The notes under the pieces are model-generated. The model saw only the letters and a program-made list of their open reading frames with translations, was not told the DNA's origin and searched no databases. DNA of 64,000 nucleotides, taken from an uncultured Fibrobacter sp. (GTDB lineage: Bacteria; Fibrobacterota; Fibrobacteria; Fibrobacterales; Fibrobacteraceae). Both the position numbers and the translations under genes were made by a program. Shown one piece after another: positions 24,927-25,630 of the stretch; position 1 is the stretch's first letter; each line of letters opens with the position of its first letter. The stretch is taken from assembly GCF_947166265.1 (NCBI RefSeq), contig NZ_CAMVDO010000016.1, positions 1-64,000 of the forward strand, written 5' to 3'.

Positions 24927-24955
24927 TAGACAACTTTGAAAATATTTGCTAAATT
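24927..24955 (+). promoter_or_regulatory. Promoter of tRNA-Ser
   Basis: TAGACA at 24927-24932 and TAAATT at 24950-24955 are 17 bases apart, and the tRNA begins 11 bases later. Confidence 0.65.
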
Positions 24956-24966
24956 GTGCAAACCTC

Positions 24967-25051
24967 GGAGAGATGCCAGAGTGGTCGAATGGGCCGGTCT
25001 CGAAATCCGGAGTCTGTCACAGGACCGAGGGTTCGAATCCCTCTCTCTCCT
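24967..25051 (+). tRNA. tRNA-Ser (anticodon CGA)
   Basis: The acceptor stem GGAGAGA pairs with TCTCTCC (25044-25050); the T arm is GAGGG-TTCGAAT-CCCTC, and a long variable arm (AGTCTGTCACAGGACC) marks a class II tRNA. The anticodon loop CTCGAAA gives CGA. Two details are odd: the innermost-but-one position of the anticodon arm reads T opposite T (CCGGT/TCCGG), and the base after the acceptor stem is T where most bacterial serine tRNAs have G. CCA is not encoded. The 3' end is copied several times in the DNA that follows. Confidence 0.93.
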
Positions 25052-25053
25052 TG

Positions 25054-25092
25054 AAACGAATAAGGAACCCCTTGTGGGTTCCTTATTCGTTT
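25054..25092 (+). terminator. Terminator of tRNA-Ser
   Basis: A 17-bp perfect stem (AAACGAATAAGGAACCC and its complement) with a CTTGT loop ends in GTTT-TATAAG directly after the tRNA. Confidence 0.88.
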
Positions 25093-25105
25093 TATAAGCA
25101 AAGAG

Positions 25106-25440
25106 GGATGAGAACCCTCGTAGGGGTTCGACAAAACCCGCAAGAGCGAAGCGAATACAGCGGGTTTTGAGATTGCGGTCAAAGACCGCAACCCGGAGGG
25201 CAACAATTGAACGGAGAGAAAATGTTGTCTTATCCCTCTCTCTCCTTGAAACAAAAAGCGGAGCCGTAAGGCCCCGCTTTTTGTTTCATGAAAAAGGATG
25301 AGAACCCTCGCAGAGGGTTCGACAAAACCCGCAAGAGCGAAGCGAATACAGCGGGTTTTGAGATTGCGGTCGAAGACCGCAACCCGAAGGGCAACAATTG
25401 AACGAAGAGAAATTGTTGTCTTATCCCTCTCTCTCCTTGA
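25106..25440 (+). repeat. Two copies of a four-hairpin element ending in the tRNA-Ser 3' end
   Basis: Near-identical units start at 25106 (GGATGAGAACCCTCG) and 25296, 190 bases apart. Each carries four successive stems: GAACCC(TC)…(GA)GGGTTC, AAAACCCGC…GCGGGTTTT, TTGCGGTC…GACCGCAA and CAACAATT…AATTGTTG. Each closes with TATCCCTCTCTCTCCTTGA, identical to the tRNA-Ser 3' end plus following bases. Differences between copies mostly keep the stems paired. No protein-coding frame with a plausible start is seen. Confidence 0.85.
25248..25287 (+). terminator. Second terminator after a duplicated tRNA-Ser 3' end
   Basis: GAAACAAAAAGCGG pairs with CCGCTTTTTGTTTC (25274-25287). It stands in the same position relative to the copied tRNA end (TTGAAAC) as the true tRNA terminator does, although the stem sequence is different. 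Confidence 0.75.
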
Positions 25441-25630
25441 GAGGGGGATGTCAAGCGAAATGAAATGAGCTTGTAGTCCCATCCCTCTCTCGTATTGAGA
25501 GAGGGTCTTTAGCGGCGAAGGAAACGAAGTGACTGAGTCGTCCTATCCCTCTCTCTCCTAGAAGAATGTGGAAGGTGGCAAAGCTTGAAACGAAGTGAAA
25601 GCTTTGTCCTATCCCTCTCTCGTCATCAAT
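25441..25630 (+). repeat. Shorter stem-loop units each ending ATCCCTCTCTC
   Basis: Three further units end in ATCCCTCTCT at 25481, 25545 and 25611. Each contains a short stem around a purine-rich loop such as GAAACGAAGTGA (for example CAAAGCTT…AAGCTTTG at 25579-25606) followed by a GTCCTATCCC-like tail. CCCTCTCTC-GTATT-GAGAGAGGG at 25483-25505 is a perfect hairpin. No gene is seen up to 25670. Confidence 0.7.

Follow-up and report, generated by a model that had tools for sequence, protein, structure and literature searches.

The DNA analysed here is a 64-kb stretch of the genome of an uncultured Fibrobacter sp. (the window), in which a tRNA-Ser(CGA) gene is followed by repeated copies of its own 3' end. 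What are these copies, and what lies between them? A sequence-only reading of the locus had listed six copies of ATCCCTCTCT and had offered three explanations: repeated integration of small elements, relics of a lost tandem tRNA gene, or an array of non-coding RNA transcribed together with the tRNA. Within the window, the + strand has six copies, at 25037, 25232, 25423, 25481, 25545 and 25611, and no others; the - strand contains none. The extended sequence TATCCCTCTCT is found four times in the whole 3.77-Mb genome, exclusively within the array, and its reversed control pattern 0 times; a six-copy array is far past chance. As detailed below, we assign a probability of roughly three in four to the array being composed of tRNA-linked repeats (TLRs) of the RtT type that belong to tRNA-Ser(CGA).

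Anatomy of the array behind tRNA-Ser(CGA)

Copies of the tRNA end are spaced by 195, 191, 58, 64 and 66 nucleotides and fall into in-register families, delimiting two full units, each about 190 bp long, and three mini-units that measure 58-66 bp. The features below include matches to the Rfam family RtT (RF00391) and to R1, a covariance model derived from alignment A1, which comprises 22 units of this genus only, 20 of Ser and two of Pro type. Body boundaries were set by eye; promoter and terminators are sequence readings only.

24927..24955, + strand: promoter-like site of the tRNA gene, TAGACA-17-TAAATT (consensus scan)
24967-25051, + strand: tRNA-Ser(CGA), CCA not encoded (ARAGORN; Rfam RF00005, 56.5 bits)
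25054..25092, + strand: terminator-type palindrome 1, between tRNA and unit 1 (within inverted repeat I1)
25102..25120, + strand: antisense T-arm of unit 1, AGAGGGAT-GA-GAACCCTCG (direct reading; inverted repeat I1)
25122..25131, + strand: unit 1 copy of T-stem 5' strand plus T-loop start, GGTTCGA (direct reading; R1 helix 1)
25132..25230, + strand: structured body of unit 1 (R1 match 25112-25237, E 5.7e-29; RtT match 25087-25249)
25132-25169, 25171-25191, 25192-25201 and 25201-25229, + strand: hairpins P3, P4, P5 and P6 of unit 1
25232..25252, + strand: copied tRNA 3' end of unit 1 (identical to 25037-25057)
25247..25288, + strand: terminator-type palindrome 2 (inverted repeat I3, 95% complementary)
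25293..25310, + strand: antisense T-arm of unit 2 (direct reading)
25312..25422, + strand: T-stem 5' copy and structured body of unit 2 (R1 match 25302-25428, E 1.4e-32)
25423..25437, + strand: copied tRNA 3' end of unit 2
25440..25625, + strand: three mini-units (D1/D3 families, I2; tail copies at 25481, 25545 and 25611)

A full unit thus reads, in order, terminator-type palindrome, antisense T-arm, T-stem 5' strand with GGTTCGA, hairpins P3-P6 and tail ATCCCTCTCTCTCC, the last (at 25232) corresponding to the T-stem 3' strand plus the acceptor end of tRNA-Ser. The antisense T-arm copy that opens each unit (25102-25120, 25293-25310) had been overlooked before. In unit 1 it is complementary to the tRNA T-arm except for GA opposite GA, yielding a GA/GA tandem mismatch with G57-A58 of the T-loop, and the T-stem 5' strand copy terminates in GTTCGA in each full unit. 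The tail of unit 1 is identical to the true tRNA end over 21 bp, 15 of them within the tRNA gene and 6 nt past its end. The sequence-only reading was right that this first copied tail is followed by TTGAAAC just like the original; the strong hairpin I3 comes next. Tails after unit 1 are shorter than 21 bp. Each mini-unit contains a single P6-type hairpin, and these alternate with tail/anti-tail hairpins; similar mini-units are carried by relatives.

Terminators comparable to palindrome 1 stand behind most tRNAs of this genome, and palindrome 1 itself is absent from the output of a simple terminator scan. Palindromes of this type are positioned 5' of the first units and of many later ones; predicted expression of the units would therefore depend on read-through. 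A 177-aa antisense ORF (...FQGERGIRTLGPVTDSG..., window 24949-25482, - strand) spans the tRNA and both units. We rejected a protein-coding reading: the ORF has no Pfam match, its repeats are owed to the underlying tRNA copies, and it is likely a spurious gene call. The identity of the units as TLRs accounts for such antisense "proteins" over loci of this kind.

Units are found behind many tRNAs throughout Fibrobacteraceae

Searching other tRNAs and other genomes, as the sequence-only reading had proposed, placed the unit behind several tRNAs and yielded R1 matches in 75 of the 80 genomes of the genus. Six further genera of the same family harbor R1 units; outside the family, the R1 search of the phylum returned no genome with a unit. 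Within the window's own genome, tail copies are also located behind the tRNAs Pro-TGG, Pro-CGG, Arg-TCT, Arg-CCG, Arg-ACG, Gly-GCC and Gly-CCC. Units standing at random sites and lacking tRNA ends had been named as an outcome that would speak against a tRNA link, and the result came out for linkage: of the 118 strong R1 matches in fetched loci, 103 follow a tRNA on the same strand (Pro-CGG 53, Ser-CGA 42, Pro-TGG 6, Gly-CCC 2). One of the remaining 15 lies at a contig end, and 14 belong to loci where the intact tRNA gene is preceded by a duplicate with a unit fused into it. A unit behind Ala-GGC was identified in another genus of the family (locus L159), as were R1 matches near Gly-GCC (another genus, locus L170). 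Loci contain one to six units, with up to six behind one tRNA-Pro of a relative (L108).

Units are matched to their host. When compared with the other tRNA types of the window's genome, the tail best matches its own tRNA in 91 of 102 cases, with ties in 6. In a genus with a different Pro T-arm (GTGGGTCCGAATCCC; loci L146 and L148), antisense T-arm, T-stem copy and tail are all changed accordingly. Among the units checked, 48 have GAGAAC in the antisense T-arm, and variants occupy its place in others. No unit lies behind the one 5S gene found in the window's genome. Behind a tRNA-Glu(TTC) (locus L071), terminator and tRNA end are duplicated without a TLR body.

The units are homologous to E. 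coli tRNA-linked repeats

TLRs have been described in E. coli since 1978 and, aside from those linked to 5S rRNA genes, we know of no accepted function for them. Twenty-two are known at ten loci, each having 18-19 bp in common with the end of the upstream tRNA or rRNA (PMC8144298). The window array resembles them in three respects: it lies directly behind a tRNA gene on the same strand, the 3' end of unit 1 is identical to that of the upstream gene over 21 bp (about 18-19 bp being the criterion), and its copies, two full and three mini-units, are arranged in tandem.

RtT covers both full units end to end (1-130 of 130) with 33.4 and 32.7 bits and E-values of 8e-5 and 1e-4, the match to unit 2 being located at 25277-25429. 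The Rfam gathering score of 45 bits was reached in 0 of 21 genomes; we therefore describe the window units as TLRs homologous to RtT and do not file them as members of Rfam RtT. The reverse test is stronger: R1 recovers all four E. coli tyrT/rttR units with E-values of 8e-9 to 3e-6. The tyrT units read GGGGAAGGATGAGAAGCTTCGACCAAGGTTCGA...CCCGAAGGGC...AATCCTTCCCCCACCACCA, a layout like that of the window with tRNA-Tyr ends, and the annotated rttR terminates at the CCA of its copied tail. The GATGAGAAC motif of the window's antisense T-arm is common to RtT and proteobacterial units.

The E. coli 5S-linked TLRs rrA, rrB and rrF are located between two terminators and transcribed by read-through; their ends are compatible with a cut by RNase E at the copied 5S end, which the authors propose to be an RNase E signal (PMC8144298). 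A window unit, lying behind a terminator and ending in a copied tRNA end, agrees with this scheme. We consider it most likely that the units are structured RNAs. Transcription would run on from the tRNA past its terminator, and cleavage at each copied tRNA end would release the unit RNA.

Related units occur in three classes of proteobacteria

A total of 84,980 species genomes was scanned with the pattern GATGAGAACR...GTTCGA...CCGAAGG, identifying 41 stretches. The pattern was chosen for other tRNAs and phyla, and the scan undercounts units because its required R excludes those of Ser, Pro-CGG and enteric Tyr type. Matches directly behind tRNAs were found in gamma-proteobacteria (Lys in Gilliamella; Pro, Ser, Val, Gln and Arg in others), beta-proteobacteria (Ser) and alpha-proteobacteria (Gly), and R1 supports most of the tRNA-adjacent matches. 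A further match lies behind Arg-CCG in a Fibrobacter MAG (locus L234) and is similar to the Arg-CCG unit of the window's genome. Matches in Bacteroidota, Actinobacteria, Acidobacteria, Verrucomicrobia and others were rejected, being coding-like with no adjacent tRNA; on these, R1 returned nothing except one match at E 1.6. One contig of Gilliamella sp. wkB108 (locus L241) harbors nine near-identical units with a 168-bp period and a tRNA-Lys type end.

Hairpins covary and are under selection

Consecutive stems in the two 190-bp units had been noticed in the sequence, and a covariation test of them had been suggested. The stems are real: in alignment A1, 27 of 38 pairs display double changes, with 174 cells compared with 58 in the shuffled control, and sliding the pairing partners abolishes the signal. 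The independent proteobacterial set gives 33 of 36 pairs and 184 cells compared with 54 shuffled, in an alignment fitted to the R1 structure, which favours this result. Hairpin structure is under selection. The RNA fold of unit 2 beats 200 of 200 shuffles (z -5.2); its reverse strand folds nearly as well (z -4.7), which palindromes lead one to expect. Together with the RtT match and the reciprocal match to rttR/tyrT, covariation backs the tRNA-linked non-coding RNA option among the three earlier explanations.

Selection could also act on DNA, the units mattering as folded single strands or as recombination or replication structures, with RNA incidental. G-U pairs make up 2.1% of unit stem cells compared with 8.9% in tRNA acceptor stems of this genome, a value unusual for RNA and scarce despite rich covariation. 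The p-value for this difference is inflated by relatedness among the sequences, and nearly half of the G-T cells lie in P2. Hairpin loops are mostly C-GNA-G triloops in all units (alignment A2), and such triloops are unusually stable in DNA. Scarce G-U pairs and these loops leave room for a DNA-level role, and the terminator-type palindromes separating tRNA from units are in line with it. However, G-T cells outnumber A-C cells 85 to 19, as expected for RNA of the + strand, RNA expression is on record for the E. coli members (PMC8144298; rttR annotation), and the tail copies a processed RNA end, with CCA where the gene encodes CCA. On balance, we regard a primarily DNA-level array as improbable.

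A genome-wide search for the P3 loop motif yielded 37 matches compared with 4 in the control. Copies outside units were dismissed as coding-like sequence or as intergenic hairpin repeats of another type. One such repeat, GTCATTGCGAGCGNAGCGAAGCAATCT, was observed at loci L178, L181, L182, L186 and L196 at about position 1500, its GA-NCGNAGN-GA loop being common with the units.

Units are inherited with their tRNA

Body sequences were compared for their nearest relative outside their own array. In 90 of 92 cases this relative stands behind the same tRNA in another genome, whereas relatives behind a different tRNA within the genome itself account for 0 of 92; units are therefore resident and inherited with their tRNA. 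Arrays would grow and shrink via tandem duplication and deletion between repeats, and the two full units of the window, 97% identical over the 126 nt they have in common, are consistent with tandem duplication.

Several relatives harbor duplicated tRNA genes with a T-loop interrupted by a unit body, both for Ser (L142, L017, L114, L016, L136) and for Pro (L124, L138, L115, L135). Anticodon arms are altered in the duplicated tRNA-Ser genes (L142 820-1265, L017 940-1350 on the - strand, L114, L016 and L136), several of which retain an intact acceptor stem and a promoter-like sequence similar in kind to that of the window's tRNA gene. In L124 (540-775) and L138, the intact tRNA-Pro is preceded by a tRNA-Pro that lacks its 5' part and has two unit bodies in tandem in its one T-loop. 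The interrupted T-loops are probably the product of a deletion and not of an insertion: GAGGGTTCGA occurs in both the tRNA and the unit, and once the tRNA gene had been duplicated, loss of the DNA between these direct repeats would yield exactly such a T-loop.

These data bear on the earlier proposal of repeated integration. We specified it as small mobile elements, tyrosine-recombinase or IS200/IS605-like MITEs, that enter a tRNA gene at its T-loop or 3' end and restore it. Copied tRNA ends at both sides, and bodies lodged after GTTCGA of the T-loop, sometimes two in tandem, are what such elements would leave, yet the vertical descent of the bodies argues against them, the interrupted T-loops are explained by deletion, and among the matches examined no copies lie away from tRNA loci. 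A cognate Y1 transposase was detected in only 7 of the 31 carrier genomes searched, whereas units are present in nearly all genomes of the genus. Per-tRNA inheritance and the rarity of Y1 transposases led us to reject the insertion element or MITE assignment, and mobile elements are a very improbable source of the array. Least credible are functionless remnants of a decayed tandem tRNA array, to which the tRNA-derived tails, variable array length and truncated appearance of mini-units would point, but which is disfavoured as a general explanation because the structure is conserved genus-wide, and which is opposed by strong compensatory covariation across genera and phyla, genus-wide retention of the units and homology to E. 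coli RtT.

Significance of tRNA-linked repeats beyond E. coli

The array of the window, read as TLRs of tRNA-Ser(CGA), makes what had been a peculiarity of E. coli a more general phenomenon among bacteria. TLRs are a fixed feature of Fibrobacteraceae, where they follow at least the tRNAs for Ser, Pro, Arg, Gly and Ala, and the antisense T-arm motif is common to their units and those of alpha-, beta- and gamma-proteobacteria. By our reading of the literature, which was not exhaustive, TLRs are apparently without prior record outside proteobacteria. An alignment with strong covariation is now at hand, and the comparison separates the conserved features, namely host tRNA match, GA/GA motif and CCGNAGG hairpin, from those that may vary. 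We put forward, as a speculation of low probability, that TLRs are old, cross-phylum tRNA companions and the unit a dedicated cis regulator of the tRNA in front. The match between the GA/GA antisense T-arm and the host tRNA would then be maintained by the unit's action in cis on the precursor of that tRNA, either to time or check the maturation of its 3' end or to sense that tRNA specifically.

Comparison with known systems

REP/BIME elements are likewise intergenic hairpin arrays, but carry no tRNA ends, are dispersed over the genome and differ in sequence anatomy. The closest relative is RtT of E. coli tyrT/rttR, with which the units have in common the antisense T-arm GGATGAGAA, a hairpin, GGTTCGA, body hairpins with CCCGAAGGGC and the copied tRNA 3' end, as well as the arrangement in tandem arrays and the tandem GA motif noted from covariation in RtT (PMC7657543, PMC8250186). 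Unlike RtT, they score 33 bits against a gathering score of 45 and have a longer P3, terminator-type palindromes separate them, mini-units are present, many different tRNAs per genome carry units, and the copied end in the window lacks CCA because the tRNA gene does. RtT RNAs of Pasteurellaceae have been found near Asn- and Lys-tRNA (PMC4986893), so that the family stands beside tRNAs other than Tyr there as here, although in a different phylum and reportedly upstream of the tRNA. E. coli TLRs in general copy the 3' end of the upstream tRNA or rRNA in loci of 1-5 units (PMC8144298). Unlike with rrA, rrB and rrF, no unit was found behind the one 5S gene here, and one tRNA-Pro of a relative is followed by up to six; the rrB TLR, positioned between two terminators and reached by read-through (PMC8144298), is similar to the window unit behind its terminator.
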